DNA of 20,138 nucleotides from a virus: the IMG/VR virus record IMGVR_UViG_3300046005_001532, positions 1 to 20,138 of that record; one strand, 5' to 3'. Below are positions 5,514 to 18,465 of the stretch, one piece after another. The notes beneath the pieces are model-generated. The model was not told the origin of the DNA and ran no database searches. It saw only the letters and a list, made by a program, of their open reading frames with translations. The position numbers and the translations under genes were made by a program. Position 1 is the first letter of the stretch; each line of letters begins with the position of its first letter.

Positions 5514-5692
5514 TTAATTAACTCCTCGATCTGGCAATTCTCAGTCAGATACAAAGTGATTTCGTTCACGTCACCTTTTTTATCAACAGCAGTTACACGC
5601 ATAAAGCGAATGAGTGAATCATCTGGCATGAATAGGTTTTCTTGCTTGAATGTCAGGTCTTGTATGTGATGAATTGATACTGAAGTTGACAT
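5510..5692 (-). CDS. Small phage protein, 60 aa
   Basis: 60-aa protein of unknown function. Start by TAATG overlap with the stop of the membrane-protein gene and end by ATGA overlap with the 52-residue gene. The sequence contains LIRFMRVTAVDKKGDVNEITLYLTE, an alternating pattern suggesting a small beta-sheet, followed by a short terminal helix. No known motif seen. Confidence 0.68.
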   Translation of the reverse strand: MSTSVSIHHIQDLTFKQENLFMPDDSLIRFMRVTAVDKKGDVNEITLYLTENCQIEELIK

Positions 5693-5982
5693 TATTCATT
5701 CCCCCAAGCATCTACAAGCGACATGGGCGAGATCGGCATTGCATTGCCATCTTCAGCCTTAGCTTGGGTGGTGGTTAGGAACATTGATAAGAGCAACAAG
5801 ATGCCAGCAATAATAGCGATCAGGAATTTAGCATCGCTGACAGCCTGAGCATCTATGTAAAAGTGTTCTTCGTATTCTTCAACAATCACACGCTCTGGTT
5901 TAAATACTTTCTTAGCTTGTTCTTTGATGAAGTCTTGACGTTGCTTAGATGCAAAGTCTTTTACTGGATAGTGAATAGCCAT
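5692..5982 (-). CDS. Single-pass membrane protein, first gene of the left operon
   Basis: 96-aa protein of unknown function. The N-terminal 50 residues are basic and soluble (MAIHYPVKDF, KEQAKKVFKPERV, EEYEEHF) and are followed by one strong membrane segment at about 53-69 (FLIAIIAGILLLLSMFL) and a short polar tail; Lys before the segment predicts an inside N-terminus. The ATG at 5982 has a good CGGAGAA ribosome-binding site; a longer upstream frame reaching about 6048 lacks one. It is the first gene expressed after the structured PL leader, the position of lambda genes that act on the host early in infection. A superinfection-exclusion role is possible but unproven. Confidence 0.75.
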   Translation of the reverse strand: MAIHYPVKDFASKQRQDFIKEQAKKVFKPERVIVEEYEEHFYIDAQAVSDAKFLIAIIAGILLLLSMFLTTTQAKAEDGNAMPISPMSLVDAWGNE

Positions 5983-6453
5983 GTTTATTTCTCCGATAAT
6001 TATTATTGATTGCCATGCTCTCAATGGCTTCCCAGCGTTACCACACAAGCGAATGTGTTGAACAGGTAAGATGTATTCATAAGACTGCCTACCAAGACAG
6101 CAAGCCTCTCACAACAATCTATCGAGATAGACAGTCTTATAAACCCCAGACACTTAGCCGGTCTGGGTTAGCAATTACGGCAGTTATGTTAATTAGGTGA
6201 TTACTGCACCGGACTTATTACAGAGCCGGTGGACTCTGGCCGTAAATTCTTCTCCCAAAAAGACCCTCACCGAAATGAGGGTTGAATGTGCCGTTTAGGC
6301 GAGGAGTAACCCTTCGAGGTTATAAGGCTTGGCACGAAAGGCTACCCCCGTAGAACTAACATACCAAGTCTTATAAAGACGATTTCCTGCTAAGGTCTAT
6401 CGGAGTATTTCACCGGCCTTGCAATCCTTCTACGTGGATTATCCGTTTCGTTG
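5983..6453 (-). ncRNA. Structured untranslated leader of the PL operon (predicted)
   Basis: About 470 bases without a credible gene between the predicted PL start (near 6453) and the first left-operon gene. It holds a dense series of perfect pairings: TTCTACG 6428-6434 with CGTAGAA 6349-6355 (closing a domain of about 90 nt); CCCTCA/TGAGGG at 6264-6281; CACCGG 6207-6212 with CCGGTG 6226-6231; CCCAGAC 6145-6151 with GTCTGGG 6161-6167; CAGTCTT 6132-6138 with AAGACTG 6081-6087, enclosing TCTATC/GATAGA at 6118-6131. This density is far beyond the surrounding coding DNA. I infer a leader RNA acting in termination/antitermination, comparable in position to lambda nutL or HK022 putL but much larger. 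It resembles no RNA family I recognise. Confidence 0.6.
6256..6282 (-). terminator. Intrinsic terminator inside the PL leader
   Basis: On the leftward strand a seven-base-pair stem (core CCCTCA with TGAGGG, six-base loop TTTCGG) is followed by TCTTTTT, a good rho-independent terminator. The opposite strand lacks a T run, so it is directional. It lies about 190 nt after the predicted PL start and upstream of all left-operon genes, so it would block the operon unless transcription is made terminator-resistant. Confidence 0.7.
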
Positions 6454-6459
6454 GATGTA

Positions 6460-6487
6460 ATGATACAGTAATGTATCAATTAATCAA
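6460..6487 (-). promoter_or_regulatory. Predicted PL promoter
   Basis: On the leftward strand TTGATT (6487-6482) and TATCAT (6465-6460) are separated by 16 bases, placing a start near 6453. Both boxes lie inside the operator palindromes OL1 and OL2, so repressor or Cro bound there would occlude RNA polymerase. It would drive the leader and the recombination/integration genes. Confidence 0.7.
6461..6478. promoter_or_regulatory. Operator OL1
   Basis: Perfect inverted repeat TGATACA-GTAA-TGTATCA overlapping the PL -10 box. It matches OR1 at 8282-8299 in 16 of 18 positions when read on the appropriate strand, identifying it as a binding site of the CI/Cro pair. Confidence 0.8.
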
Positions 6488-6502
6488 TACATTTATGTAT
6501 TA
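6485..6502. promoter_or_regulatory. Operator OL2
   Basis: Inverted repeat with arms AATACAT (6486-6492) and ATGTATT (6495-6501), overlapping the PL -35 box and centred 24 bases from OL1. Same half-site family as OR2 (AATACAT-CA-ATGTATT). Confidence 0.75.
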
Positions 6503-6571
6503 TTTTAAACAAAATAAACCCTATCAATGTAAGATATTAATTAATAACGGGATTTATTTTTCGACAGGCAC

Positions 6572-6595
6572 AAAAAAACCGCAGTTAAGCGGTTT
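6572..6595 (-). terminator. Terminator of the cI-Panacea operon
   Basis: On the leftward strand AAACCGC, loop TTAACT, GCGGTTT, running into a T tract (seven A on the plus strand, 6572-6578). A strong rho-independent terminator 18 bases after the last immunity-region gene; it separates lysogenic transcription from PL. The AT-rich stretch 6503-6571 between it and PL has no recognisable gene. Confidence 0.88.
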
Positions 6596-6613
6596 GGTGT
6601 GGATTTGGTGGGG

Positions 6614-7072
6614 TTATTTTTCTAATGAAGAAATAATGCGATCTTTTTTGTCTCTACTAATGGTTTTTGCCAATACAACTGATTTTATTATTTGCTCTTT
6701 AATTTGTAGAGTTATATTTCCTTTTATTGCTGATGGTTCAGATAATAATGATTTGATAACATCTTCGCGTTTTAAAGGAAATATTTCATGACACGCAATA
6801 TATGAGTCATGATTTAAAAAACTATGGTCAACCGCTTTAATTGGGACTTGGCAATCAAGCAAATGTTGTTTATTTTTTATAAATTTATTTATATCTGAGT
6901 TTATTAAAAATGTGAAATACTCAGGATCTTCTATTGATACCAGTATGAGATATTTGGATTTCGTAATATTCGGGAATTTTATTTCAAGCTTTACTACGCA
7001 ACCAGGCTTAAGTGCTGTTTCTATATGATCTCGTTTTAAGTCGCTAGGGAAGTGATCTCCAAGTGACACCAT
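6614..7072 (-). CDS. Probable toxin/effector partner of Panacea protein
   Basis: 152-aa protein with no certain domain. The first 100 residues contain GCVVKLEIKFPNITKSKYLILVS, YFTFLINSDINKFI, LLDCQVPIKAVDHSFL and HDSYIACHEIFPL, an all-beta pattern that resembles the SH3-like barrel of PemK/MazF-type proteins (GDVV..., LIVS..., then a conserved DSYI-x-C). The C-terminal 50 residues are helical (IKEQIIKSVVLAKTISRDKKDRIISSL). It starts three bases after the Panacea gene stop (TGA TCT ATG) without a clear Shine-Dalgarno, so it is probably translated only by coupling to the antitoxin, as expected for a TA operon. The fold and the toxin role are inferred from pattern and neighbourhood; it could instead be an exclusion protein. 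Confidence 0.6.
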   Translation of the reverse strand: MVSLGDHFPSDLKRDHIETALKPGCVVKLEIKFPNITKSKYLILVSIEDPEYFTFLINSDINKFIKNKQHLLDCQVPIKAVDHSFLNHDSYIACHEIFPLKREDVIKSLLSEPSAIKGNITLQIKEQIIKSVVLAKTISRDKKDRIISSLEK

Positions 7073-7075
7073 AGA

Positions 7076-7603
7076 TCAATTAGCGTGAATGTAGTTTAGA
7101 ATTTCTCTAGAATTTGGCAGTGTAGATACGATAGCGTCAATACTAATATAATTGCTCTGATGTACACTTTTCCATGCACTGTCATGAGTAATATCTGTTA
7201 ACTGTCCGAATGTTTTAAGCCCGTAAATTGTTATTGTTTGTAAAATACATTCTGTTTCAGATTCCGATAGTAAGTCAGCATCATACTGTCGTTTTGGAAT
7301 AATATTTCTACCGTAAGAAACTGAAATTGCTTCTTTAATAAGATCATCCCAGTCCGTATCTATAGAAAATTTGTTATCAGCTACCTTCATCATATTGTAA
7401 ATAGCTGATGGAACAGGACCATATTCCAGCGCCAAATAACTATCACCACAAATTAAGCGACCATATTCTTGCAGATGCAATTTATCTGAAAGATAAAGCA
7501 ATTTTGATATACTATGAAGTGTAGGATTTTTTAAATTACGGGCAATAAAAACAATAACTTCAAGAGCCTTTTCTCTATCAAAATGCTTTATATGAACCGC
7601 CAT
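7076..7603 (-). CDS. Panacea (SocA-like, DUF4065) domain protein, likely antitoxin
   Basis: 175-aa protein of the Panacea/SocA family, formerly DUF4065, known to act as antitoxins (PanA) that neutralise many unrelated toxins and to appear in phage GepA proteins. Diagnostic segments: LHSISKLLYLSDKLHLQEYGRL (29-50), the strongly conserved EYGPVPSAIYNMMK (60-73), a SESE segment (113-116) and LTDITHDSAWKSV (135-147) with the conserved His and Trp. Ribosome-binding site AAAGG is eight bases before ATG. It is followed after three bases by an unknown 152-aa gene that I take to be its partner. The pair lies downstream of cI, the position of rexAB in lambda. Family assignment secure; antitoxin function by family knowledge. 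Confidence 0.88.
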   Translation of the reverse strand: MAVHIKHFDREKALEVIVFIARNLKNPTLHSISKLLYLSDKLHLQEYGRLICGDSYLALEYGPVPSAIYNMMKVADNKFSIDTDWDDLIKEAISVSYGRNIIPKRQYDADLLSESETECILQTITIYGLKTFGQLTDITHDSAWKSVHQSNYISIDAIVSTLPNSREILNYIHAN

Positions 7604-7662
7604 CTTATATACCTTTAATTAATTTTGTGAACGATGTGATATTAATCAGTTCTTGTGTATCT

Positions 7663-7691
7663 AGTATAACTTATCTATCTTTTTTATTCAG
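7663..7691 (-). promoter_or_regulatory. Weak candidate promoter for the Panacea pair
   Basis: Leftward TATACT (7668-7663) has a 17-base spacer to CTGAAT (7691-7686), a poor -35 box. It would give the Panacea operon its own transcription besides read-through from PRM. The -10 is good but the call is tentative. Confidence 0.35.
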
Positions 7692-7708
7692 CGGATCAAT
7701 AATTACAT

Positions 7709-7858
7709 TCAGGTAAGTGTGCTGCCATAGTCCTCCTTTGTAACCGCGTCTTTTTTTTGTGAATCTTCAATATCCCTTTTTACTGCATCACAAAATGGCT
7801 TATCTGCTGCTTGATTCTGTCGTCTTTTATAAGCAGATAAGGGATCATGCAGGTTCAC
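7709..7858 (-). CDS. Short ORF after cI, or frame-shifted repressor tail (49 aa)
   Basis: A frame open for 49 codons from a GTG overlapping the cI stop (GTGA). It encodes a charged, soluble peptide (NLHDPLSAYKRRQNQ, VKRDIEDSQKKDAVTKEDYG). The start follows a run of ten G that could serve as ribosome-binding site, so translational coupling is plausible. Alternatively, one extra G in the run would fuse this frame to cI and give a 172-aa repressor; the frame could therefore be a C-terminal segment separated by a slippage event or a sequencing error. I recognise no domain. A second, tiny frame starts at an AGGAGG near 7735 but codes only ten residues and is not called. Confidence 0.45.
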   Translation of the reverse strand: MNLHDPLSAYKRRQNQAADKPFCDAVKRDIEDSQKKDAVTKEDYGSTLT

Positions 7859-8226
7859 CCCCCCCCCACATTTTCCGGTCGAGCTGTCAAGGGTTTATTT
7901 ACAGGTTTTTGAGATAATTCTGGTTGAGCTTGGACAAGTGTATTAACCATTTGCTCAATTAGTTTTCTATTTTCTTCATTCAGCTTTTCAATATTTTCAT
8001 AAAGCGGAACTGGAGCATCAATTTCTTCAAACCCTCTTAAAGCTGCTTCTGTTATCCCAAGACCTTTTGCAAGTTTTCTTACTGTATCAGCTCGTGGATC
8101 ACCAATTTTACCTTTTAAAAATCTTTGTATAGTTGGTTGTGGAACTCCAGATTTACTAGATAAATCATAGGCGTTCCAGCTTTTCAGCATCATTTCTTTT
8201 TCAAGATTAGTTCTTAATGTAGTCAT
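7855..8226 (-). CDS. cI: CI-like phage repressor (HTH only, no peptidase domain)
   Basis: 123-aa XRE-family protein. Residues about 14-62 form the lambda-repressor-like helix-turn-helix (NAYDLSSKSGVPQPTIQRFLKG, then DTVRKLAKGLGITEAALRG), followed by a helix rich in Glu/Asn (ENIEKLNEENRKLIEQMVNTLVQ), probably for dimerisation, and a short polar tail. There is no S24/LexA-type autoprotease domain, so RecA-dependent cleavage is not expected. The chosen ATG (8226) lies exactly where transcription from PRM should begin; an upstream frame to 8319 runs through the operators and is rejected. It is divergent from cro across three operators, the standard position of CI. The C terminus ends in Gly codons encoded by a G10 run. 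Confidence 0.85.
   Translation of the reverse strand: MTTLRTNLEKEMMLKSWNAYDLSSKSGVPQPTIQRFLKGKIGDPRADTVRKLAKGLGITEAALRGFEEIDAPVPLYENIEKLNEENRKLIEQMVNTLVQAQPELSQKPVNKPLTARPENVGGG
7858..7867. repeat. Homopolymer run of ten C (G10 in the cI sense)
   Basis: Ten consecutive C on the plus strand form the last codons of cI. Runs of this length are prone to slippage. A change of +1 would join cI to the following 49-codon frame. Confidence 0.95.
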
Positions 8227-8232
8227 TACACA

Positions 8233-8261
8233 AGTATGCATATTTGTATCATCTAAATCAA
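8233..8261 (-). promoter_or_regulatory. Predicted PRM promoter of cI
   Basis: On the leftward strand TTGATT (8261-8256) and CATACT (8238-8233) have an ideal 17-base spacer. Six bases after the -10 comes the A of the cI ATG (8226), so the transcript should be leaderless, as for lambda cI from PRM. The -35 touches OR2 and the -10 and spacer are covered by OR3. Confidence 0.72.
8234..8251. promoter_or_regulatory. Operator OR3 (imperfect)
   Basis: Contains the exact half-site TGTATCA (8245-8251) with a degenerate partner. It overlaps the PRM -10 and spacer and is centred 26 bases from OR2, so a bound protein would shut off cI. Weaker match than OR1 and OR2. Confidence 0.55.
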
Positions 8262-8277
8262 ATACATCAATGTATTG
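8260..8277. promoter_or_regulatory. Operator OR2
   Basis: Perfect inverted repeat AATACAT-CA-ATGTATT (8261-8276) located between, and touching, the -35 boxes of PRM and PR; nearly the same as OL2. Repressor here could both block PR and contact polymerase at PRM. Confidence 0.78.
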
Positions 8278-8303
8278 ACGTTGATACATTAGTGTATTAT
8301 TAT
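8275..8303 (+). promoter_or_regulatory. Predicted PR promoter of cro and the right operon
   Basis: TTGACG (8275-8280), 17-base spacer, TATTAT (8298-8303): a near-consensus sigma-70 promoter. Expected start is about 8310, two bases before the cro ATG. OR1 fills the spacer and OR2 overlaps the -35. Confidence 0.85.
8282..8299. promoter_or_regulatory. Operator OR1
   Basis: TGATACA-TTAG-TGTATTA, the closest relative of OL1 (TGATACA-TTAC-TGTATCA on the leftward strand). Centred 22 bases from OR2 and lying in the PR spacer and -10. Confidence 0.8.
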
Positions 8304-8311
8304 TGCATCCC

Positions 8312-8500
8312 ATGAACATACAAAAAATCCTTTCAAGTATTAAAGAAACAGGTATCAGCGATTCAAAGATTGCTGCTCTAGTTGGAACTTCTCAGCCTCA
8401 AATATTCAGAATACGAAAAGGACAAAGTCCAAAGTATGAATTAGGAGAAAAGATAGGAAGTCTTGCTAAAGAAATCTGTCCCGACATTTTTGGAAAATAA
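8312..8500 (+). CDS. cro: Cro-like repressor
   Basis: 62-aa HTH protein, divergent from cI across the operators. Residues about 14-40 (GISDSKIAALVGTSQPQIFRIRKG) form the helix-turn-helix; the size is typical for Cro (60-70 aa). It is expected to bind the same operators and to repress PRM and later PL/PR in lytic growth. The ATG at 8312 is used rather than an in-frame TTG at 8303, which lies in the PR -10. No Shine-Dalgarno is present and the predicted transcript start is only two bases upstream, so translation would be leaderless or almost so. It is followed directly (TAA ATG) by a ribbon-helix-helix gene. Confidence 0.85.
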   Translation: MNIQKILSSIKETGISDSKIAALVGTSQPQIFRIRKGQSPKYELGEKIGSLAKEICPDIFGK

Positions 8501-8692
8501 ATGGCACTCGACTACGAAATAAAAACTTCAGTTGATGAGGACACCCATGACAACGCTCTAGTTACTGCCAGATCGTACGGCTTTAAGACTCGCGCGGAGT
8601 GGGTACGCTGGTTAATAGAGAGAGAGTTGGCATGGGCAGTTCCACAACTACATATTAACCGCATACCTGGTGTTGTGAAAGGGCGAGAGTAA
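8501..8692 (+). CDS. Ribbon-helix-helix regulator, 63 aa
   Basis: 63-aa protein with the Arc/MetJ-type ribbon-helix-helix plan: beta strand YEIKTSVDED, helix THDNALVTARSYG, turn FKTRAEW, second helix VRWLIERELAWAV. Such proteins bind DNA as dimers through the strand. It starts immediately after the cro stop codon with GGAAAA upstream, so it belongs to the PR transcript. Its position is that of cII in lambda, but it is unrelated in fold; an early regulator of establishment or of late transcription is a reasonable inference. Confidence 0.75.
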   Translation: MALDYEIKTSVDEDTHDNALVTARSYGFKTRAEWVRWLIERELAWAVPQLHINRIPGVVKGRE

Positions 8693-8749
8693 GGCTTTAT
8701 TCGTCTGCAAAATAAATTGAACTTTTTGAAAAGTAGTCTAGCGGAAATT

Positions 8750-8947
8750 ATGAGCGAACAGAAAAGAAACATTGCAGGGGATAAGAGAGCAGCAAGTTTA
8801 TCTCTGCGTCCTCGTAAAGCTCAAACCAATACGTTTGGTAGAGGATTTGAGTTATCGCCTAAAGCAACAGAGATGGACATTATTGAAAACCAGCGCAGAC
8901 ATGTTTGTTTTCAATCAAAGTTTGGACGATTTGTAAGAAATAAGTAG
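8750..8947 (+). CDS. Small basic protein, possible N-like RNA binder (65 aa)
   Basis: 65-aa, strongly basic protein. The N-terminal 30 residues carry many Arg/Lys (EQKRN, GDKRAAS, LRPRKAQ), followed by a conserved-looking FGRGFELS segment and a basic C-terminus (NQRRH, KFGRFVRNK). Start ATG at 8750 with GCGGAAA upstream is preferred to an in-frame TTG at 8717. It is the last gene before the structured right leader. Small Arg-rich proteins encoded next to nut-type RNA are often antiterminators such as lambda N, and that is my working hypothesis; the sequence has no clear match to N and coding status is itself moderately certain. Confidence 0.55.
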   Translation: MSEQKRNIAGDKRAASLSLRPRKAQTNTFGRGFELSPKATEMDIIENQRRHVCFQSKFGRFVRNK

Positions 8948-9033
8948 TGCTTCAACTAAGACTTGGACGCTAAAAAACAATCAGAAGATTCAGGCTAAAA
9001 ACGGGTTCGGTCTGGTTGTGAGGTGAGGGAAGA

Positions 9034-9132
9034 ATGCACAAGCCCTTAACGGTGGGAATCATCCCAATGATAGCTGTAAATCGTATCGAAGAACGGAACC
9101 TCGGCCTAATAGCTAAGGGTGATCCGGTTTAG
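9034..9132 (+). CDS. Possible 32-residue leader peptide
   Basis: An ATG preceded by a strong GTGAGGGA Shine-Dalgarno opens a 32-codon frame (MHKPLTVGIIPMIAVNRIEE ... GDPV). It lies inside the structured leader. It may be a translated leader peptide that controls folding of the RNA, or chance. Low confidence because the bases also form hairpins. Confidence 0.25.
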   Translation: MHKPLTVGIIPMIAVNRIEERNLGLIAKGDPV

Positions 9133-9395
9133 ATAGTCAGCTAATCAGAATGGACGACCAGAGCCGAGTGAGGCATCTGCCATAGGTGTTAAGTCTGGTC
9201 AGCGGCAACAGAATATGTCTAGAGGATTGCCGTCCTGAGTGCTGTGACACTCTAAGTAGATTCGTTCTATCCGATCATTTGGGTAGGGGAATCTTTACCC
9301 CGAATACTGACAAACACTAAGGCAAGTTAATTCAGCCCTAACCAAGAGAGTGTAAGTGTTTTATATCAAATTTAAACTGATTTTAATCAACATGG

Positions 9396-9413
9396 TTAGG
9401 GTAATTACCCTAA
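9396..9413. promoter_or_regulatory. Perfect 18-base palindrome abutting the ribosome-binding site
   Basis: TTAGGGTAATTACCCTAA, its right arm overlapping the AAAGGA Shine-Dalgarno (9412-9417) of the gene at 9427. As RNA it is a hairpin that could hide the site; as DNA it could be an operator. The upstream flank (9360-9390) is very AT-rich. Confidence 0.65.
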
Positions 9414-9426
9414 AGGAAACCGGCTA

Positions 9427-9876
9427 ATGAGAGTAGCAATAACCACAAGTACAGGCGTTAAATTCATTGAGGATGTGTCATCTATTGTTTCGGAAGCAAA
9501 TAAAAAAAGACTTTCTGCACTGCCATTTAATCAACAAGTGGCGCGTCTTGACTCCTTTCTTGCTTACGGTGAATTAAGAAAAAAAGTATCAGATTTTGAG
9601 GTGTACAAAGATAAAAACGGTAATGTTGGTGGTGATCCTAAGTGGATAGTTATCGCTTTTAACAAAATGGTTCAAAAACACTTTGGATTTTCTGTGACTA
9701 ATGAAATGACAGAATTTCAAACCAGGTCAATTTCAAATGTAAGGCGTGTTGTGCAATCAATTATTGAGCTAGGTGTTGAGCAGGAATTAACACGAAAAGA
9801 AGTTAGAGAAAGGATGTGGTCTGCAGTAGAAATATTAGGGAATCAATACAAACAAACACAGGGATTAATGCAATGA
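9427..9876 (+). CDS. Unknown phage protein, 149 aa
   Basis: 149-aa protein not recognised. It reads as mixed alpha/beta at the start (MRVAITTSTGVKFIEDVSSIV) and mostly helical afterwards (NKMVQKHFGFSVTNEMTEFQTRSISNVRRVVQSIIELGVEQ, VRERMWSAVEILGNQ). It is the first gene after the structured leader, with AAAGGA as ribosome-binding site, and its stop overlaps the next ATG (ATGA), so the two form a unit in front of the helicase. The place is where lambdoid phages keep replication-initiation genes; no initiator motif is seen. Coding status is secure, function unknown. Confidence 0.8.
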   Translation: MRVAITTSTGVKFIEDVSSIVSEANKKRLSALPFNQQVARLDSFLAYGELRKKVSDFEVYKDKNGNVGGDPKWIVIAFNKMVQKHFGFSVTNEMTEFQTRSISNVRRVVQSIIELGVEQELTRKEVRERMWSAVEILGNQYKQTQGLMQ

Positions 9877-10877
9877 GTCAGTTAGTCATATTGCCAGATA
9901 TGAATCTGGAAGAAGCCACCGCCAAGCATCAAGAGTTAAAAGCAATACATGGTGTTGCACGATCAATGCTTTTAGAAATGCGTGACCGTAAAGGCTGGAA
10001 GGCATTGGGTTATTCATCGTTTGAAGATTATGGCGATAAAGAGTGGGGATATAAAACATCTTATCTTTATGGGATAACGAAAGCCGCTGAAATTCAAAAG
10101 GTTATAGAAAATTCCGCAATTGCGGAAAAACAAATACCTGAAGGTCAGCTACGACCACTATCACAAGTCCCCGATGACATTAAGAAGCAAATCTGGGATC
10201 AGGTTAATGAAGAAAACAAGGTTGTTACTGCCAAGCTGATTGAACAAGCCATTGCTAAATATAAAGCTGATTTGCTGGGTAGGGATGATCTACTCGAGAA
10301 AGTAAGAAAGCAACGCGATGACTGGAAAGGAGCGAGTGAAGCAAAAATTAACCAACTTACCAGCAAGCTCAATACAGTAGAAGAAGATAAGCAAAAAGCG
10401 ATTAACGAAGCCATTATTTTAGAACGAAAAAACATGCAATCAGCTCTTGATTTAAAGAAATCTGATGCTGAAAAGTTACGCCTGGATATGGTGGCGCTTA
10501 AGAAATTACATGAAAAAACAGTGGATGAAAAGGTTAATGCAAAATTAAGCCAAATGCAGATCGAGATTAATCAAAAGCAATATCAGATTGATTCATCAGA
10601 AAAACGCATTAACGCCTTGAAGCTCCAAGAAATGGAAATGGAACAGACATTTGGAAAAATTAGCCGCCACAAAAAAGCCATTGCAGAAATTCAAAACCTT
10701 ATCGAACTGATGTTCATTCCTTATGGAGGAATATTAGAGGATCAGGAATGGGATGTGCCAAGTGAGATTATTTCAGAGTGGAACAAGATAGAGAGGTCAT
10801 TACAGAGTGCATTAAGTACAACAAGCGGTATCTGCTCAAATCTGCATCAACCCGTATTAAGAGTCATAAACGAATAG
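9873..10877 (+). CDS. Coiled-coil DNA-binding-like protein, 334 aa
   Basis: 334-aa protein. Residues about 20-110 (LLEMRDRKGWKALGYSSFEDYGDKEWGYKTSYLYGITKAAEIQ ... IPEGQLRPLSQVP) match a recurring N-terminal module of phage and plasmid proteins in which a GW-x2-LGYSSFEDY helix precedes an HTH-like segment that selects a tyrosine at KTSYLY and ends with QLRPL; it is reminiscent of ParB-type HTH regions. Residues about 150-275 are a long charged coiled coil (KINQLTSKLNTVEEDKQK ... SSEKRINALKLQEMEME). A short helical C-terminus follows. It may organise DNA or help initiate replication with the downstream helicase. Start by ATGA overlap at 9873; an earlier in-frame start would overlap the previous gene by 60 bases. 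Confidence 0.78.
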   Translation: MSQLVILPDMNLEEATAKHQELKAIHGVARSMLLEMRDRKGWKALGYSSFEDYGDKEWGYKTSYLYGITKAAEIQKVIENSAIAEKQIPEGQLRPLSQVPDDIKKQIWDQVNEENKVVTAKLIEQAIAKYKADLLGRDDLLEKVRKQRDDWKGASEAKINQLTSKLNTVEEDKQKAINEAIILERKNMQSALDLKKSDAEKLRLDMVALKKLHEKTVDEKVNAKLSQMQIEINQKQYQIDSSEKRINALKLQEMEMEQTFGKISRHKKAIAEIQNLIELMFIPYGGILEDQEWDVPSEIISEWNKIERSLQSALSTTSGICSNLHQPVLRVINE

Positions 10878-10884
10878 ATATGAA

Positions 10885-10923
10885 AAAGCCCACTGAAACC
10901 GGCAAAAGTTAGACGTGGGCTTT
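10885..10923 (-). terminator. Nine-base-pair hairpin, leftward terminator-like
   Basis: AAAGCCCAC (10885-10893) and GTGGGCTTT (10915-10923) pair perfectly around a 21-base loop. On the minus strand the stem is followed by TTTTT, on the plus strand only by TTTAC. It thus looks like a terminator for antisense, leftward transcription within the rightward operon, and probably only weakly affects rightward reading. Confidence 0.55.
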
Positions 10924-10953
10924 ACTGAACTTAACCAGCAAGAGTAATTATAC

Positions 10954-12441
10954 ATGAATTTACAGGAATTATTAAGAGAATATCAGCAAGTACAAAATGA
11001 TGCCATAAGAGCATCAGCCATGCTGGGCAATAGACGGATTATATCGTGTGCGCCTACCGGTAGCGGTAAGAGCATCATGATTGGCGAGTTAGTAGCCTCT
11101 TTATTGGAGAAGAAGTCTGGTACTCAGCGTGTTGTGATTGTGTTACCAAGACGGTCATTAGTGAAGCAACTAAGTGATTCATTCACTGGTTGGGGCATTA
11201 ATCATGGCGTAGTAATGAGCGGAGTTAAGCCGTTTCTTATGCCTAGATGCCAGATAGTGAGTATTGATACATATACGTCAAGGATGGCTGCTGAAACATT
11301 GAAGTTTATAGAAGGTGATTGTCTCATTGTTGATGAGATGCACTTGCAGTTTACACCTAAGAAGCTGGAATTATTTGCTCGTTATCCGTTTGTTATAGGT
11401 TTCTCAGCGACACCGGTAGCACCTAATAAGCAAAGTTTAGGATTATTTTACGATGCGATTGTTGAGACAGTAACCTTAAAACAGCTCACAAAAGATAACT
11501 ATTTATCACCATTGAAATATTACGCCCGTCCTGATATTGATTTAAGTGGATTAAAACTCGGTAAGGATGGTGACTGGCGAGAGTCACAGCTCGGTGATGT
11601 GATGGACAAGCCTAAGCTGATCGGTGACATATTTGATAACTGGAAAAGACTTGCAGAAAACAAAAGTACCGTGATATTTGCCAGTTCTCAGTCTCATGCT
11701 AGGCATATCTGTGATGAATTTAACAGTCATGGTTATTCAGCCGAATATGTTGATTGCAATACACCAGACGAACAACGGCAGGAAATGTTTGACAGAGTTC
11801 GTGCTGGTAAAACTAGGGTTATTGTGAATGTTGGCATCGTTTCAGTCGGGATCGACATACCTAATTTGGAATGTGTGGTTTTAGCCCGTCCTACACGCAA
11901 GATAGCGATGTATTTACAGTGCTTGGGAAGAGTTACACGAATCTGCAAGGGTAAGACTCACGGTATTGTTATAGATCACGCTGGCATTATAGAAAGACTT
12001 GGATTTGCAACCGATGATTTTGAATGGTCACTCGATGGCAAAGAGTCAGTCGAGGATCGGAATAAAAAGACAAAAGAAGAAAAGAAAGAGCCAAAAGACA
12101 TTATATGTGGTGACTGTGGAACGGTCTTCAGATCAAGACGTTCATGCCCAAACTGTGGCTATGAGTCTATTCCACAAGGCATGCCAGTACCGATACATCA
12201 GGCAGACTTAAAAGAAGTCGTCAAGATTAAATCTGTTGATAAAAAGACGTTTTATGCCGAGCTTCTAGGGTATGCAAAACAGAACGGTAAAAGCAGTAAG
12301 TTTGCCCTGGCTATTTTCAGAAAGAAGTTTAACGAATGGCCACACGGAAAGAACAGCGCACAACCGTTACCGCCTAGCCAAGAGACGATTGGTTATATCA
12401 AGCATAGTCATATTGCTTTTGCTAAGAGGGCAGCAGCGTGA
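10954..12441 (+). CDS. SF2 DEAD/DEAH-type helicase with C-terminal zinc ribbon
   Basis: 495-aa ATP-dependent helicase of superfamily 2. Walker A APTGSGKS (33-40), Walker B IVDEMH (125-130), motif III SATP (151-154), the second RecA-like domain with VIFASSQSHA (240-249) and motif VI QCLGRVTRICKGK (322-334) with arginine finger. A four-cysteine zinc ribbon, CGDC (385-388) and CPNC (398-401), follows after a Lys/Glu linker. Phages with this gene use it as replicative or origin-melting helicase; here it overlaps the primase gene at a GTGA junction, which supports a role in genome replication. The absence of a DnaB- or DnaC-type loader in the window is consistent with that. Confidence 0.93.
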   Translation: MNLQELLREYQQVQNDAIRASAMLGNRRIISCAPTGSGKSIMIGELVASLLEKKSGTQRVVIVLPRRSLVKQLSDSFTGWGINHGVVMSGVKPFLMPRCQIVSIDTYTSRMAAETLKFIEGDCLIVDEMHLQFTPKKLELFARYPFVIGFSATPVAPNKQSLGLFYDAIVETVTLKQLTKDNYLSPLKYYARPDIDLSGLKLGKDGDWRESQLGDVMDKPKLIGDIFDNWKRLAENKSTVIFASSQSHARHICDEFNSHGYSAEYVDCNTPDEQRQEMFDRVRAGKTRVIVNVGIVSVGIDIPNLECVVLARPTRKIAMYLQCLGRVTRICKGKTHGIVIDHAGIIERLGFATDDFEWSLDGKESVEDRNKKTKEEKKEPKDIICGDCGTVFRSRRSCPNCGYESIPQGMPVPIHQADLKEVVKIKSVDKKTFYAELLGYAKQNGKSSKFALAIFRKKFNEWPHGKNSAQPLPPSQETIGYIKHSHIAFAKRAAA

Positions 12442-13388
12442 GAGTTGATATCAAGCAAGAATGTGCAGGTCGCTGGAGTGGTGTTTTAACTAATTTGGGC
12501 ATCGATGCAAGGTTATTTAATGGCAAGCATCAGCCCTGCTTATTTTGTGGCGGTAAAGACAGAGCCAGATGGGATAGAGCCAAAGAGTTTTATTTTTGCC
12601 AGCAATGTGGACACAAACAACCGATTGACATGGCTATTGAACACACCGGACTGTCATTTAAAGAAACAACTAACTTAATCAGGCCAACTGTTATGACTAC
12701 ACCGCTCCAGATCGTTAAGCCTGCCGATACACAACAAGCAGAGGCAAGAATACGTAGGATTCATGCAGGGTTAAAACATATCACGCCTGACACAGCCACT
12801 TTTTTGTATCTTGCAAAACGAGGTATATCAGTTTTACCCGATGCTGATTGCTACGAACATCCTAGTTTAGATTACTGGGAGGATGGCGTTAAAACCGGCA
12901 CGTATCCAGCAATGGTATCGGTGTTTAGAACGCCAACAGGAGAAGTGGCAACCTATCACATCACTTACCTTACAAATGACGGTGAGAAAGCACCGGTAAA
13001 GATAGCAAGAAAGATATTGCCGGTCATGCGTCCAATGGTAGGTAGTGCTATTAGGTTGTTTGAGGCTGAAGAAGTGCTGGCTATATCAGAAGGCATAGAA
13101 ACCGCGTTATCAGTTAGACAGGATCAAGGTATTCATTGTTGGGCAGCTGGATCCGCACAAGCAATGGTCAATATCGTGATTCCTGAGAGCGTAAAAGTCG
13201 TATGGATTTATGCCGATGCAGATGAGAGTTTTACTGGCCAGAAAGCCGCTTATGACTTAGCAAATAGGTTAAAGGTAAAAGAGGGCAAAACCGTTCGAGT
13301 AGTTACTTTAGTCAATCAAGAAACCGTTGAAGATTATGGACGTAAATGCGATTACAACGATTACGTCATTATGAAAGCGGCTTCCTGA
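12438..13388 (+). CDS. DNA primase with zinc ribbon and Toprim domain
   Basis: 316-aa primase. N-terminal Prim_Zn_Ribbon: C34 and C37 (CLFCGGKDRARW), C54 and C57 (FYFCQQCG). The C-terminal half has a Toprim_3-like fold: E218 in ISEGIETAL, the DxD pair D260/D262 in IYADADE, and a terminal CDYNDY segment like the DxND of related phage primases. It lays down primers for phage DNA synthesis together with the upstream helicase. The GTG start overlaps the helicase stop (GTGA), so the two proteins are translationally coupled. Related proteins are often about 300-350 aa in plasmid- and phage-encoded helicase/primase pairs, consistent with a full-length gene. Confidence 0.92.
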   Translation: MRVDIKQECAGRWSGVLTNLGIDARLFNGKHQPCLFCGGKDRARWDRAKEFYFCQQCGHKQPIDMAIEHTGLSFKETTNLIRPTVMTTPLQIVKPADTQQAEARIRRIHAGLKHITPDTATFLYLAKRGISVLPDADCYEHPSLDYWEDGVKTGTYPAMVSVFRTPTGEVATYHITYLTNDGEKAPVKIARKILPVMRPMVGSAIRLFEAEEVLAISEGIETALSVRQDQGIHCWAAGSAQAMVNIVIPESVKVVWIYADADESFTGQKAAYDLANRLKVKEGKTVRVVTLVNQETVEDYGRKCDYNDYVIMKAAS

Positions 13389-13394
13389 CTGAAA

Positions 13395-13538
13395 ATGCAC
13401 GAGTTTACAGAGATGATAGAAAACACATTTGGCATACAAGCTAAAGCCATGAAGCATAAAGACACGTTAATTATGCATGAAGGTAAGTTTCAACAAAAAC
13501 GCAATATGACTGTTCCTAAATCGAGGGTTAGCTGGTGA
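13395..13538 (+). CDS. Small basic phage protein, 47 aa
   Basis: 47-aa protein MHEFTEMIEN ... FQQKRNMTVPKSRVSW, in the same operon six bases after the primase stop. Too short for usual gene calling, but an open, coding-like frame between two tight genes. Basic C-terminal half. No domain recognised. Its stop is two bases from the convergent antitoxin stop. Confidence 0.55.
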   Translation: MHEFTEMIENTFGIQAKAMKHKDTLIMHEGKFQQKRNMTVPKSRVSW

Positions 13539-13540
13539 AA

Positions 13541-13819
13541 TTAAGACACAATCAATTTACAGCCCAATGCTTCAACAATTTTGGTGATGGTATCAAAGCG
13601 TGGATTGCCATCATCAGAAAGCGATTTGTAAAGACTGGCTCTAGTTACTCCAGCTTGCTTTGCAACCTCTGTCATTCCCTTAGCTCTGGCAGCGGTAGAT
13701 AAAGCATGAATAAAGTCAGACATATCACCAGAGTTAGCAGATTCTTTGAGAAACAATTTAATGTCTTGATCCGTTTTAAGGTAATCAGCAACATCAAAAG
13801 GAGTAATGATTTCTTTCAT
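13541..13819 (-). CDS. higA: HigA-type antitoxin (HI1420 family)
   Basis: 92-aa antitoxin of the probable addiction-module antidote family typified by HI1420. N-terminal EIITPFDVADYLKTDQDIKLFL is characteristic; residues about 48-92 (KGMTEVAKQAGVTRASLYKSLSDDGNPRFDTITKIVEALGCKL) are the XRE-type HTH that autoregulates the operon. It follows the toxin gene after three bases, the toxin-first order usual for this family, and both are read against the surrounding early operon. It should bind and neutralise the downstream-partnered RelE-like toxin. Confidence 0.92.
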   Translation of the reverse strand: MKEIITPFDVADYLKTDQDIKLFLKESANSGDMSDFIHALSTAARAKGMTEVAKQAGVTRASLYKSLSDDGNPRFDTITKIVEALGCKLIVS

Positions 13820-13822
13820 AAT

Positions 13823-14122
13823 TTAAGTCTCAAGGTTATTCAAAATAGTTCTAGCCTTTTCAATATCACGGCTTTGGCTAGATTTATTGCCACCTGCCAA
13901 CAGCAATACAACTTCATTGCCTTTGATTGTGTAATAGATACGAATACCAGCACCAAAAACAAATTTCAATTCAAACAAATGACAAGACAGTGGTTTGAAA
14001 TCGCCAAAATTACCATTGCTGACGCGATCCAGTCGAGTAAGAACCTTGCTAATAGTTACAGGGTCTTTAAGGCTGTTCATCCAAGTGCTAAATGTTTGAG
14101 TGCTTTGCAGTTCATATTTCAT
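13823..14122 (-). CDS. higB: RelE/HigB-type toxin (HI1419 family)
   Basis: 99-aa toxin of the RelE/ParE superfamily, HI1419-type. Features: YELQSTQTFSTWMNSLKDP at the start, the family core GNFGDFKPLSCHLFELKFVFGAGIRIYYTIKGNEVVLLLAGGNKSSQSRDIEKA, with R, Y and K residues in the places used by such mRNA interferases. The ATG at 14122 gives the usual family length; a frame starting at 14149 runs into the promoter and is rejected. The transcript predicted from its promoter begins on this ATG, i.e. leaderless. Whether it acts on mRNA cannot be told from the sequence. Confidence 0.92.
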   Translation of the reverse strand: MKYELQSTQTFSTWMNSLKDPVTISKVLTRLDRVSNGNFGDFKPLSCHLFELKFVFGAGIRIYYTIKGNEVVLLLAGGNKSSQSRDIEKARTILNNLET

Positions 14123-14128
14123 AGATAT

Positions 14129-14156
14129 ATTGTATCCTGTAAGAAACAAATGTCAA
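14129..14156 (-). promoter_or_regulatory. Promoter of the higBA pair
   Basis: On the leftward strand a perfect TTGACA (14156-14151), a 16-base spacer and TACAAT (14134-14129). The expected start falls on or beside the toxin ATG at 14122, leaving no leader for a ribosome-binding site. Confidence 0.78.
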
Positions 14157-14169
14157 GAATAATTGGCGC

Positions 14170-14595
14170 ATGAAAGACACTTTTGTAATTGATGAACGAG
14201 GTGCTTTTCATGCACAGAAAACCATAGGTGATTTACCAACTGATGGAAGCATGATGGTTACGATTCAGAAAGTAACACGAACACTGGCTCATAACGCGGT
14301 GCAATGGCCTATTTTAAACGCATTTAGCCAACAACTGCTGTGGCCGGTCAATGGTGCTATGTGCAAACTCACAGGCGAAGAGTGGAAAGATATTCTAACA
14401 GCCGCTTATCGACAAGAAACAGGACGCATTGCTCAAGGATTAGATGGTGGAATGGTCATGTTAGGACACAAAACAAGGGAGTTTAAAAAAGATGAATGGC
14501 CAGATTGGATGGCGTTTTTAGAATCTGTAGCAGCAGATCGAGGTGTCAAAGTGCCTATGTCAAAAAGACAATATGAGTCTATGGGTTATGAGTAA
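14170..14595 (+). CDS. ninB: NinB recombination protein
   Basis: 141-aa NinB (Orf) family protein, a recombination mediator that in lambda can replace RecFOR functions at SSB-coated DNA. The signature RTLAHNAVQWPILNAFSQQL, LTGEEWKDILTAAYRQE and GLDGGMVMLGHKTREF, then a helix ending DRGVKV, is all present and the length matches. It resumes the rightward operon after the inverted toxin-antitoxin insert; the ATG at 14170 has no good Shine-Dalgarno. It works logically with Erf and SSB from the left operon. Confidence 0.93.
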   Translation: MKDTFVIDERGAFHAQKTIGDLPTDGSMMVTIQKVTRTLAHNAVQWPILNAFSQQLLWPVNGAMCKLTGEEWKDILTAAYRQETGRIAQGLDGGMVMLGHKTREFKKDEWPDWMAFLESVAADRGVKVPMSKRQYESMGYE

Positions 14596-14869
14596 ATTAC
14601 GAGATAGCGCTAGAGGGCAAAACTGCTTAGTTAGATTGCCTGGCATATGTAATTTTAATCCGGAAACAGTGGTATTGGCTCATTTAGGTGGAGGCGGTAT
14701 GGCATTGAAGAAACATGACATACAAGGTGCATTTTGCTGTAGCAGTTGCCATGACGAGATAGATAGAAGGACACGGCTATTTGACAAGGATTATGCAGAA
14801 TTGGCTCACAGGCAGGGTGTGGAAAGAACGCAGAACTATTGGATAGAGCATGGCTTACTCAAAGTATAA
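14588..14869 (+). CDS. YbcO-like putative nuclease (DUF1364)
   Basis: 93-aa protein of the DUF1364/YbcO family of lambdoid phages. Characteristic segments: LRDSARGQNCLVRLPGICNFNPETVVLAHL, then FCCSSCHDEIDRRTRLFD and ARTQ-like ERTQNYWIEHGLLKV. Cysteines C15, C23 and the CSSCHD segment suggest a zinc-bound HNH-like nuclease fold, as described for YbcO. Its ATG overlaps the end of ninB by eight bases. Chosen over an earlier in-frame ATG at 14543 that lies in ninB. Confidence 0.9.
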   Translation: MSKLRDSARGQNCLVRLPGICNFNPETVVLAHLGGGGMALKKHDIQGAFCCSSCHDEIDRRTRLFDKDYAELAHRQGVERTQNYWIEHGLLKV

Positions 14870-15191
14870 GAATTGCAAGACGCTCATCAACGGGCATGAG
14901 TTTGCCAGTAAAGCAGAAGCCAAGCGTTATGTAGAGTTACATGTATTAAGAAATGCTGGAGTTATATCTGAACTAAAACTGCAATCTAAATATGAACTGA
15001 TACCCAAGCAAAGGAGATCAGATGGAACAATGGAGCGAGCCTGTCATTACTTGGCTGATTTTGAATATATCGAGAATGGAAACTTGATAGTTGAAGATGT
15101 TAAGGGCGGTAAATCTACACCCGAATTTATTATTAAACGCAAGCTGATGTTGGATAAGTACGGCATCACAGTTAGAGAGATTAGAAAATGA
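14850..15191 (+). CDS. DUF1064 protein, predicted PD-(D/E)XK endonuclease
   Basis: 113-aa DUF1064 family member. The pattern FASKAEAKRYVELHVLRNAGVISELKLQSKYELI, YLADFEYIENGNLIVEDVKGG and KRKLMLDKYGI gives the PD-(D/E)XK-like E, D, E-x-K residues (E in SKAEA, D in ADFEY, and EDVKG). These phage proteins occupy the place of Holliday-junction resolvases such as RusA/Rap, and I infer that role. The ATG has GGATAGAG upstream and overlaps the YbcO-like gene by 20 bases. Confidence 0.88.
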   Translation: MAYSKYKNCKTLINGHEFASKAEAKRYVELHVLRNAGVISELKLQSKYELIPKQRRSDGTMERACHYLADFEYIENGNLIVEDVKGGKSTPEFIIKRKLMLDKYGITVREIRK

Positions 15192-15271
15192 TTGATTGGT
15201 TTGTTCTACCGTTTTACGCAACGATTTTATTTATGATTTATGTGATCTATTCATCATGGGGAGGGTGTTAA
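15188..15271 (+). CDS. 27-residue hydrophobic microprotein
   Basis: 27-aa membrane peptide (MIDWFVLPFYATILFMIYVI...), almost entirely one hydrophobic helix. It starts by ATGA overlap with the DUF1064 gene and ends by TAATG overlap with the next gene, the same coupling as its neighbours, which argues it is translated. No homologue recognised. Confidence 0.5.
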   Translation: MIDWFVLPFYATILFMIYVIYSSWGGC

Positions 15272-15453
15272 TGGATGACATGGACGAATTAAACAATAAT
15301 TATCTTTTTAATCAGTGCAGAAAATTATACAGGCGAAACCCAACGGATCAGGAAGAAACAGATTTCCATGACTTGTTTTGGAAGATAGTAGTAGAGGAAG
15401 GTTTATCACCTGATCCAGCTAGACATAAAGCATTTCTAAAGGTAATTACATGA
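15271..15453 (+). CDS. Small phage protein, 60 aa
   Basis: 60-aa acidic protein (MDDMDELNNNY ... FLKVIT) with a strong GGGGAGG ribosome-binding site 7 bases before the ATG. Contains a NPTDQEETDFHDLFWKIVVEEGLSPDPARHKAFLK helical part. An upstream in-frame ATG (15196) has no ribosome-binding site. Function unknown; early operon, just before another small coupled gene. Confidence 0.65.
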   Translation: MDDMDELNNNYLFNQCRKLYRRNPTDQEETDFHDLFWKIVVEEGLSPDPARHKAFLKVIT

Positions 15454-15674
15454 AGCATAGTCATTACTACAAAGATACTTCCCACCTAGATGGCATGGAT
15501 GTTTATCGCATACTCAAAGAATGGGAAGTAACTGATCCTTGTATTCAACACGCTATCAAGAAATTACTGTGTGCTGGTAAGCGAGGTGTTAAGGATGAAG
15601 AACAAGACGTGCAGGAAGCCATAGACACACTTGAGCGTTACAAAGGAATGAAAGCAGAGGACGAGTTAGCATGA
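15450..15674 (+). CDS. Conserved small phage protein, 74 aa
   Basis: 74-aa protein, HYYKDTSHLDGMDVYRILKEW at the start followed by DPCIQHAIKKLLCAGKRG and an acidic helix QDVQEAIDTLERY. The AIKKLL-x-AG-x-RG-x-KD pattern recurs in small phage proteins that have a DUF3310-like (nucleotide kinase-associated) helical layout. ATGA coupling at both ends. Exact function unknown. Confidence 0.78.
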   Translation: MKHSHYYKDTSHLDGMDVYRILKEWEVTDPCIQHAIKKLLCAGKRGVKDEEQDVQEAIDTLERYKGMKAEDELA

Positions 15675-15847
15675 CATGTTGGCCAATGCTTAAATTTCCA
15701 CCGGTCAATCTATTCAGCGCACCTGTTAGATCTTCGCATTGCAAACACACACACTGGGCAACTTATGTAAGCTGGAAAAAACGTACCTGTATAGATTGTG
15801 GATTGGAAAAGCCACTTTATGAACTTGAAATACAACATCAGAGGTAA
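15671..15847 (+). CDS. Small Cys/His-rich protein, 58 aa
   Basis: 58-aa protein. C24, H26 and H28 (SHCKHTH) with C40 and C43 (RTCIDCG) form a plausible zinc-binding site. Starts by ATGA overlap with the previous gene. Missed by length limits. No family recognised; a small nucleic-acid-binding or adaptor protein is possible. Confidence 0.6.
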   Translation: MTCWPMLKFPPVNLFSAPVRSSHCKHTHWATYVSWKKRTCIDCGLEKPLYELEIQHQR

Positions 15848-15850
15848 GGA

Positions 15851-15982
15851 ATGGATATGCAACTACTAGCAGGAGTGATTGCGCTTGCAATTTTTGTGAT
15901 AGGTGTTACCGGCTGCATAGTTAAATATGCACTGAAGGTATTTGATGACATATGGAAAGATGATGATAGCGAGTATTTTTAA
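15851..15982 (+). CDS. Small membrane protein, 43 aa
   Basis: 43-aa protein with one membrane segment (LLAGVIALAIFVIGVTGCIV, about 5-24) and an acidic tail (DDIWKDDDSEYF). GGTAAGGA lies right before the ATG. It ends at a TAATG junction with the next small gene. No homologue recognised. Positioned between the early and late blocks. Confidence 0.6.
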   Translation: MDMQLLAGVIALAIFVIGVTGCIVKYALKVFDDIWKDDDSEYF

Positions 15983-16089
15983 TGGCACTTAAAACAACTA
16001 ATAAGAATCGTAAAAAGAATATAAAGTTTAAAGCAGACGAAAGTTCGTTTAAAACTGAAAATATTGCAAAAACACAAGATATGGTATAA
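15982..16089 (+). CDS. Small lysine-rich peptide, 35 aa
   Basis: 35-aa peptide, very basic at its N-terminal half (KTTNKNRKKNIKFK), TAATG-coupled to the previous gene. Last gene before the late promoter, where lambdoid phages keep the late regulator Q, but too short to be Q. An RNA- or DNA-binding peptide is a guess; it may not be expressed. Confidence 0.42.
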   Translation: MALKTTNKNRKKNIKFKADESSFKTENIAKTQDMV

Positions 16090-16090
16090 T
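16064..16090 (+). promoter_or_regulatory. Promoter of the lysozyme/terminase block (extended -10)
   Basis: TATAAT (16085-16090) is preceded by TGG, a perfect extended -10. The best -35 is TTGCAA (16064-16069) at a short 15-base spacing. Expected start is near 16097, giving a 26-base leader for the lysozyme gene. The block ATATGGTATAAT is repeated before the holin-like gene. Confidence 0.65.
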
Positions 16091-16122
16091 TAACTTAAAT
16101 TTACTACTACATATAGTGTTTT

Positions 16123-16587
16123 ATGGATAAATTGATTGGGCAATTAAAGCGTCACGAAGGTTTCCGAAGTCGTATGTATTTATGTACCGCTGGCAAGGAA
16201 ACCATCGGATACGGTTATAACCTGAAAGCTAACCCTCTGCACTTAAGTAGCCTAGAGATCAGCAATGCCTACAAGAACGGCATTAATGAAGTCGAAGCAG
16301 AAAGAATACTAAAGCTCATGATATCTAAATGCATAGATCAGTTAGAAGAAGCCATACCTTTCATCAATAAACTCGATACGGTAAGACAAGACATATTAAT
16401 CAACATGTGCTTCAACATGGGATTAGTCGGATTACTTAAATTCAAGAAAACATTGCAGCTTATTGAAGCTGGGGACTATGCAAAGGCCTCAGTCGAAATG
16501 TTAGCAAGCAAATGGTCAAAAGATGTCGGCAACAGAGCGCTGGAGTTATCAACACAAATGAAGTCTGGGGTTTATGCTAACGCCTAA
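16123..16587 (+). CDS. Endolysin, T4-type lysozyme (GH24)
   Basis: 154-aa muramidase. The catalytic triad region is E12-x8-C21-x5-T27 (RHEGFRSRMYLCTAGKETIGYGYNL): the Glu and Thr of T4 lysozyme with Cys in the place of Asp, as in many lambdoid endolysins. The rest (DILINMCFNMGLVGLLKFKKTLQLI, ASKWSKDVGNRA) fits GH24. There is no signal peptide or SAR segment, so export should depend on a holin. Unusually it lies upstream of the terminase genes, separated from the holin-like gene at 18268. Overlaps terS by 14 bases. Confidence 0.92.
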   Translation: MDKLIGQLKRHEGFRSRMYLCTAGKETIGYGYNLKANPLHLSSLEISNAYKNGINEVEAERILKLMISKCIDQLEEAIPFINKLDTVRQDILINMCFNMGLVGLLKFKKTLQLIEAGDYAKASVEMLASKWSKDVGNRALELSTQMKSGVYANA

Positions 16588-16948
16588 GCAGGAAGTATTC
16601 TGTCAAGCATTAGCAGGAGGCAAAACACAGACCGATGCTTACAGAGAAGGGTTTAATGTAAGGCCAGCAACTAAACCTGAAACAACTCAAAATAAAGCCC
16701 ATCAACTTATGAAAAAGGACGAGGTTAGGGCTAGGGTTGCTGAACTCAAGGCTCAACTGTCTGAAAAGCTACTTTGGACAAGAGAAGATTCACTCAAGAC
16801 GCTCATAGCTGTCATTAATGCACCGGATAACGCTGGCAATATTATCTCGTCAGTTCAAGCTATTAATAAGATGCAAGGGTTTGATGCAGCTGAGAAGCAT
16901 GAGCTAACTGGCAACCTTAATGTGACGATTACAATTCGTGGTCGATAA
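16574..16948 (+). CDS. terS: Terminase small subunit
   Basis: 124-aa TerS, terminase_2-like. N-terminal HTH (LTPKQEVFCQALAGGKTQTDAYREGFNV, then NKAHQLMKKDEVRARVAEL) recognises the pac site; a helical oligomerisation part follows (LWTREDSLKTLIAVI) and a C-terminal beta tail (GNLNVTITIRGR). It overlaps both the lysozyme (14 bases) and terL (11 bases) genes. It should recruit TerL to phage DNA for headful packaging. Confidence 0.9.
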   Translation: MLTPKQEVFCQALAGGKTQTDAYREGFNVRPATKPETTQNKAHQLMKKDEVRARVAELKAQLSEKLLWTREDSLKTLIAVINAPDNAGNIISSVQAINKMQGFDAAEKHELTGNLNVTITIRGR

Positions 16949-18206: not shown

Positions 18207-18214
18207 TATATGTT

Positions 18215-18226
18215 ATGTTATAACAT
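18215..18226. promoter_or_regulatory. Perfect 12-base palindrome upstream of the holin promoter
   Basis: ATGTTATAACAT lies just upstream of the extended -10, where an upstream regulator could bind. Could equally be chance in AT-rich DNA. Confidence 0.35.
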
Positions 18227-18234
18227 TGCAAATA

Positions 18235-18243
18235 TGGTATAAT
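18235..18243 (+). promoter_or_regulatory. Extended -10 promoter of the holin-like gene
   Basis: TGG-TATAAT, identical over 12 bases (ATATGGTATAAT) to the promoter before the lysozyme. No good -35 box. Expected start near 18250, about 18 bases before the ATG at 18268. It may set a timing for lysis separate from terminase transcription. Confidence 0.6.
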
Positions 18244-18267
18244 CTGCACAAATGGAAAGGGGTGACT

Positions 18268-18441: not shown

Positions 18442-18465
18442 AAGAGCTTATTGTCGGGAGACAAC

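Follow-up and report, generated by a model that had tools for sequence, protein, structure and literature searches.

Comparative evidence for a large structured RNA, present as four sequence types, in the early operon of a temperate phage

What occupies the 480 bases without genes between the small gene p65 and the cargo and replication genes of the phage DNA analysed here? This stretch of DNA, 'the window', is an IMG/VR virus record of 20,138 bases with no near relative among GenBank phages, and its source is an unclassified temperate phage. The left arm, which is read leftwards, carries the genes for integrase, SSB, an Erf-like protein and others. A CI-like repressor gene (7855-8319, minus strand) is followed by the cro-like, RHH and p65 genes (8303-8947), with p65 itself (8750-8947, plus strand) being a small conserved gene of unknown family. 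Behind the gap lie two plus-strand cargo genes of unknown function, o149 (9427-9876) and o335 (9870-10877), then the replication genes for a helicase (10954-12441) and a primase (12438-13388), also on the plus strand, and finally later genes. The gap itself is real, i.e. 8948-9426 contains no open reading frame of at least 50 amino acids. Two features elsewhere in the window are recorded here in passing: a run of about ten C residues (7859-7869) inside the 3' end of the CI-like gene, which was not seen in the relative L005 and is a possible slippage site or assembly error; and a minus-strand gene pair at 13541-14149, encoding a 92-amino-acid HTH protein and a 108-amino-acid protein, which by eye only looks like a toxin-antitoxin pair of the HigBA type.

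The initial annotation had read the gap as a structured leader with six hairpins and three mutually exclusive structures at its 3' end: a stem AAACACT/AGTGTTT (9312-9318/9355-9361), a pairing of CCCTAACC (9336-9343) with GGTTAGGG (9394-9401), and a perfect palindrome TTAGGGTAATTACCCTAA (9396-9413) adjoining the Shine-Dalgarno-like AAAGGA (9412-9417) before the ATG at 9427. All these sequences are present at these positions. The six hairpins and the low folding energy, however, are not unusual for such a sequence: the region as a whole has a z-score of -0.64, with 22 of 100 shuffled sequences folding equally well, and 160-nt windows give a mean z of -0.40 within the region versus -0.41 in its neighbourhood. 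Folding energy was therefore dropped as evidence for a structured RNA, being no different from background, and only comparison with relatives could decide.

Relatives were found with the helicase, the Erf-like protein and a p65 profile as baits; for p65, only ten close sequences are available. Contigs found via the helicase share the window's sequence as far as the p65 stop codon, differ completely beyond it, and match again shortly before the helicase gene. An intact p65 gene is present in 14 contigs (the window included), and in all 14 a structured RNA follows directly after its stop codon, within a noncoding stretch of about 230-430 nt; p65 is always the gene directly upstream of the RNA. 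Scanning the whole viral collection for the core of the window's RNA type returned only contigs already known from p65. No relatives emerged with o149 as bait or from a single-sequence p65 search of bacterial genome contigs, and a DNA similarity search against phages, plasmids and E. coli gave nothing useful. By sequence, the RNAs fall into four types: A (window, L041, L042, L045 and L118), B (L005 and L006), C (L007, L008 and L116) and D (L044/L119, L120, L115 and L117).

The type A element (8946-9345, plus strand; 84-86% identity in L041, L042, L045 and L118) almost certainly encodes a genuine structured RNA, as judged from covariation. Its architecture comprises about 400 nt with two domains, 15 helices and a pseudoknot. 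In the alignment of the five type A sequences, 88 pairs are formed in 99.1% of cells. In 11 of these pairs both sides have changed with pairing retained; sliding the partners by 1-3 columns gives 0-1 such pairs, and shuffling the columns gives a mean of 4.7. The number of events behind these counts is small, as no more than three of the five sequences differ clearly from one another. Covariation is clearest in helices P6 (UAUC/GAUA, AGAC/GUCU, UACC/GGUA), P5 (UAGCUG/CAGCUA, UUAUUG/CAGUAA) and P1. On the plus strand, each sequence has 6-8 G-U pairs versus 0-1 A-C pairs, an excess which fits an RNA read in the direction of the genes.

Long arms make up the 5' domain. P1 (8946-8949/8968-8971 and 8951-8955/8963-8967), which shares one or two bases with the end of the p65 stop codon, has three of its nine pairs changed on both sides and is 100% paired. 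P2 (8977-8985/9011-9019) is paired in the window and L041, and in L118 only after one alignment gap was moved by hand; P3 (9026-9029/9043-9046) has one pair changed on both sides, and P4 (9053-9057/9062-9066) is invariant. The long arm of domain 1 (9068-9147) consists of P5 (9068-9076/9138-9147), P6 (9084-9087/9132-9135), P7 (9092-9096/9124-9129), P8 (9099-9101/9116-9118) and P9 (9103-9105/9112-9114); its 24 pairs are 100% paired in three sequences, with seven double changes versus 0-1 in slid controls. The 3' domain, whose core (9151-9300) is 98% identical within type A and by this identity alone silent on pairing, starts with a branched stem, P10 (9156-9162/9194-9200, with P10x, 9163-9165/9172-9174, and P10y, 9175-9178/9184-9187). 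The inner hairpin loop, that of P10y, is pseudoknotted to the strand just 5' of P10 (PK1, assigned by hand; AUGG at 9150-9153 with CCAU at 9180-9183 in the window, GUGG/CCAU in L041 and L118). Hairpins P11 (9203-9208/9227-9232), P12 (9237-9241/9248-9252) and P13 (outer part 9258-9263/9289-9294, inner part 9267-9272/9281-9286) follow, and at its 3' end the RNA runs into the ribosome-binding site of the next gene.

Comparison between types extends this picture. A covariance model of type A domain 2 matches type B at the corresponding place and over its full length (E-values in a 372-kb search were 2.5e-4 for L037 and 0.0066 for L005), and 18 of 37 pairs of the 3' domain are changed on both sides between A and B, versus 0-3 in slid controls, in an alignment that leans towards structure because it was fitted to the covariance model. 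From A to B, P10 changes from GACCAGA/UCUGGUC to GAUAUGC/GCAUAUC and P11 from CGGCAA/UUGCCG to CUUAGG/CCUAAG; thus, the fold of the 3' domain is common to both types, with most of the helix letters replaced. A counterpart of PK1 is found in type B (GUAGUG/CACUAC) and type C (UGGU/ACCA, UGGU/AUCA) and possibly in type D (CUGG/UCAG, UUGG/UCAA). The two-part 3' hairpin reads CUAUCC/GGGUAG within AGAUUC/GAAUCU in A, AACUC/GGGUU in B, and UACUCUA/UGGGGUA within ACCCUC/GGGGGU in C. Types C and D have another 5' pseudoknot in common, located around CACUUUAG, with different letters in both of its stems (GAGG/CCUC, GCCU/AGGC, CCGA/UCGG; CUAUCAG/CUGAUAG, GUCUGG/CCAGAU, UACCAGA/UUUGGUA). The arms of C and D were aligned by hand, which makes this comparison weaker than that of A with B. 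The type A domain 1 model found no credible match in type B, and the domain 2 model found none in type C, whose kinship with A therefore rests on the hand-aligned arms.

Covariation thus upholds the view of the region as a folded RNA rather than a plain spacer, and it is strong in 8946-9300, yet the covarying helices are different from the three pairings originally named. The pairing of CCCTAACC with GGTTAGGG is missing from five relatives (L115, L116, L117, L119 and L120), and elsewhere the distance between the two sequences ranges from about 50 to 185 nt, following the decay of a gene resembling Rmf/CrpP. In relatives CCCTAACC has nearer local partners (GGUUAU/AUAACC in L007; GGUU/AACC in L005, L041 and L118). 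The 7-bp stem at 9312-9318/9355-9361 is not kept, with overlapping pairings of 3-4 bp sometimes possible; a neighbouring pairing (ACAC/GUGU, ACAU/AUGU, UACA/UGUA, CACUC/GAGUG) could form in A and B and broke on the alignment as made. The palindrome is present in the window only and in none of ten relatives examined. It is the sole perfect palindrome of at least 18 bases in 20 kb, where we estimate that about 0.08 would be expected at equal base frequencies; it does not belong to the RNA family and may serve the o149 cargo module as an operator.

The sequence GGTTAGGG itself represents the last codons of the decayed Rmf/CrpP-like gene. In L118, an intact 57-codon gene of this kind (1535-1708; NCBIfam NF041886, E-value 3.4e-4, below the family cut-off) lies directly behind the RNA, internally deleted copies are found in L041, L042 and L045, and L007 and the window retain only the 3' part (YNKFKLIL and YIKFKLIL, respectively). 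In the window we take an open frame of 23 codons (9356-9427, plus strand), with a Shine-Dalgarno-like AAGAGAG and a stop codon overlapping the next ATG, to be the remnant of this gene. A reading of this frame as an attenuating leader peptide was dropped in view of the intact gene in L118 and the internally deleted copies in L041 and L045. The block of CCCUAACC and AAGAGAG (9336-9350, plus strand), which in L005 serves as the ribosome-binding site of an HTH-like gene of 97 amino acids, forms the 3' end of the RNA. In an unrelated 51-kb phage contig (L016, 8326-8345), a gene is immediately preceded by TTCAGCCCTAACCAAGAGAG, which agrees with the window's ribosome-binding block in all of its 20 bases. 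As a search pattern, CAGCCCTAACCAAGAG matched two unrelated contigs (L015 and L016) besides true relatives, and the KFKLIL region gave unrelated matches.

With which neighbouring gene does the RNA belong? Type A occurs with p65 proteins that are only 57% identical and with helicases that are 42% identical, one helicase type occurs with several RNA types, and the near-identical RNAs of L041, L042 and L045 go with different repressors. When compared with the left leader, repressor, p65 clade, cargo and helicase, RNA type showed no co-variation with any of them. The cargo behind the RNA can be o149-o335, an HTH-like gene (HTH97), Dam, a ParB-methyltransferase, an MT-A70 methyltransferase or the Rmf remnant, and in three contigs (L115, L116 and L117) no gene lies directly behind it, so that control of an adjacent gene cannot be its general role. 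With one RNA per relative, always in the same slot, and with types that by sequence recombine independently of every neighbour tested, the RNA is a module of its own. As an aside on the cargo, DNA methyltransferase genes in this slot (L007, 3379-4910; L041, 3122-4117, minus strand; L044, 1265-3567, minus strand; L118, 1743-3319; L120, 4500-6249) are each followed by a gene of 176-195 amino acids without a family match, some of which look nuclease-like by eye; if that reading holds, these would be restriction-modification pairs.

The position of the RNA in the early transcript follows from the predicted repressor operators (TGATACATTASTGTATYA) at 6461-6478 and 8282-8299, where the probable operator sequences are TGATACATTACTGTATCA and TGATACATTAGTGTATTA; left-arm operators vary among relatives. 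The early right transcript thus probably starts near 8300, which places the gap about 650 nt inside it. Hence, the idea of paired leaders opening both arms does not fit: on these predicted operators the left element is a true 5' leader, whereas the right one is intercistronic, about 650 nt past the right operator and behind cro, the RHH gene and p65. A model (R2) built from the type A 3' domain found no credible match in the left leader, and one kind of left leader is common to phages with type A (the window), B and C RNAs. The left leader (5980-6613, minus strand) has features of its own: it folds much more stably than expected by chance (z as low as -5.7), carries a terminator (6282-6263) present only in the window's clade, and has a middle part that is replaced or missing in relatives. 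For the right-hand RNA, no promoter or terminator of its own was found, and a search of the plus strand from 5600 to 20138 for sites like intrinsic terminators detected none. Before the helicase gene, a separate hairpin without a T run (10885-10923, GCCCAC/GTGGGC) recurs in all relatives examined, where its stem covaries (GCCGGT/ACCGGC, GCCCCA/TGGGGC, ACCCCA/TGGGGT) and its loop (around CCCGCAAAGAAAGTAA) is similar; it is possibly a protein-binding RNA element.

What such an RNA might do can be approached from its position. In phage lambda, nutR lies in the early right operon, behind cro and before the replication genes; nut is a short boxA-boxB element tied to the N protein. The present RNA has the same operon position, but no short boxA-boxB element was recognised in a non-systematic look and no N-like gene was identified. 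In put antitermination, the RNA works through the beta' zinc-binding domain of RNA polymerase. The put sites of phage HK022 are about 70 nt long with two stem-loops, putL resembles putR, putR lies about 270 nt past PR and no phage protein is needed (PMC9378689). The RNA described here likewise folds, belongs to the early transcript of a temperate phage and lies beyond the early right promoter; its free exchange among neighbours suggests that it needs no specific phage protein partner.

We tentatively favour a self-contained, cis-acting RNA in the nutR/putR position, because it combines with any neighbour, has no detectable promoter or terminator, and is kept even with no gene directly behind it. 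Lying within the predicted early right (lytic) transcript, it would act as a folded element of the nascent RNA and, together with a host partner, would help RNA polymerase through the long early operon by anti-Rho action or put-like antitermination; it might also protect the mRNA. Antitermination is here a proposal from comparison, and several findings speak against a put-like version of it: no plus-strand terminator-like site to be overcome was seen, and the RNA is about five times the size of put, has two domains and a pseudoknot, and does not resemble the left leader. With RNA polymerase as the partner, types A, B and C should be more alike in sequence; near-complete change of letters between types is odd for any constant partner.

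In a second reading, nearly as likely as the first, the RNA would be processed from the early transcript and act in trans on a host target in defence, translation or transcription, the types being alleles under selection by hosts that vary or by phages that compete. In keeping with this, the single locus has four types, whose members are almost identical in co-circulating sets but cannot be recognised from one type to another, and the nearby cargo often consists of DNA methyltransferases of several kinds. GOLLD offers a precedent, as a phage RNA in which the 3' region is conserved and the 5' region varies (PMC12286853). However, the RNA is present in every family member seen rather than patchily distributed, and no promoter or terminator of its own was found. 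In its strongest form, which we consider unlikely, this reading would make the RNAs an allelic series with the shape kept and nearly all letters replaced, in which selection by hosts or competing phages favours rare alleles and action in trans is allele-specific; if so, they would be an RNA counterpart of immunity or counter-defence alleles.

It is more improbable that the RNA switches translation or read-through of the next gene, as the initial annotation proposed for the replication operon, or serves as a riboswitch. In types A and B its 3' end does run into a Shine-Dalgarno sequence, next to which CCCUAACC can form a local pairing, but the genes downstream are wholly different or, in three contigs, not directly there, and no terminator was found. 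Homologues lacking the three exclusive pairings, which that annotation had itself named as evidence against the switch, turned up, leaving it unsupported. A role in replication, i.e. a folded single strand or a priming transcript at an origin beside helicase and primase, with types resembling incompatibility groups, has a rather slim chance of being right: the replication module lies directly downstream and type swapping would fit replicon specificity, whereas the hallmarks of an iteron-type origin are absent (no direct repeats and no AT-rich dip, with G+C at 38-50%), the plus-strand G-U bias fits an RNA, and a single helicase type goes with several RNA types. That the region is a mere spacer at a recombination hot spot with chance hairpins would agree with its background-level folding energy, but is practically negligible given 11 and 18 compensatory pairs versus 0-3 in slid controls.

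Among known RNAs, none of the 4227 families of Rfam 15 matched the window at gathering score, or 8700-9600 at E-values up to 5, and none matched 12 relatives at gathering score; a snoRNA match in L119, far below the Rfam threshold, is due to chance. GOLLD and ROOL are likewise large pseudoknotted RNAs of phages and prophages, but their Rfam models are among those without a match, they often lie near tRNA genes, of which none were found in the window, and GOLLD is at least twice the size of the present RNA, whose types moreover differ almost completely in sequence. Large structured phage RNAs are thus known, but within the incomplete coverage of our literature search, we found no description of such an RNA or of an exchangeable set with one architecture in an early operon.

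Overall, our data add a so far undescribed family of large structured RNAs, sited in the early lytic operon, a usual place for control elements in phages. Its shared architecture with little shared sequence explains why it was missed by sequence and Rfam searches, and similar RNAs may hide in other phages. Phages that otherwise differ have exchanged types, which provides a natural swap set for testing the role of such an RNA.
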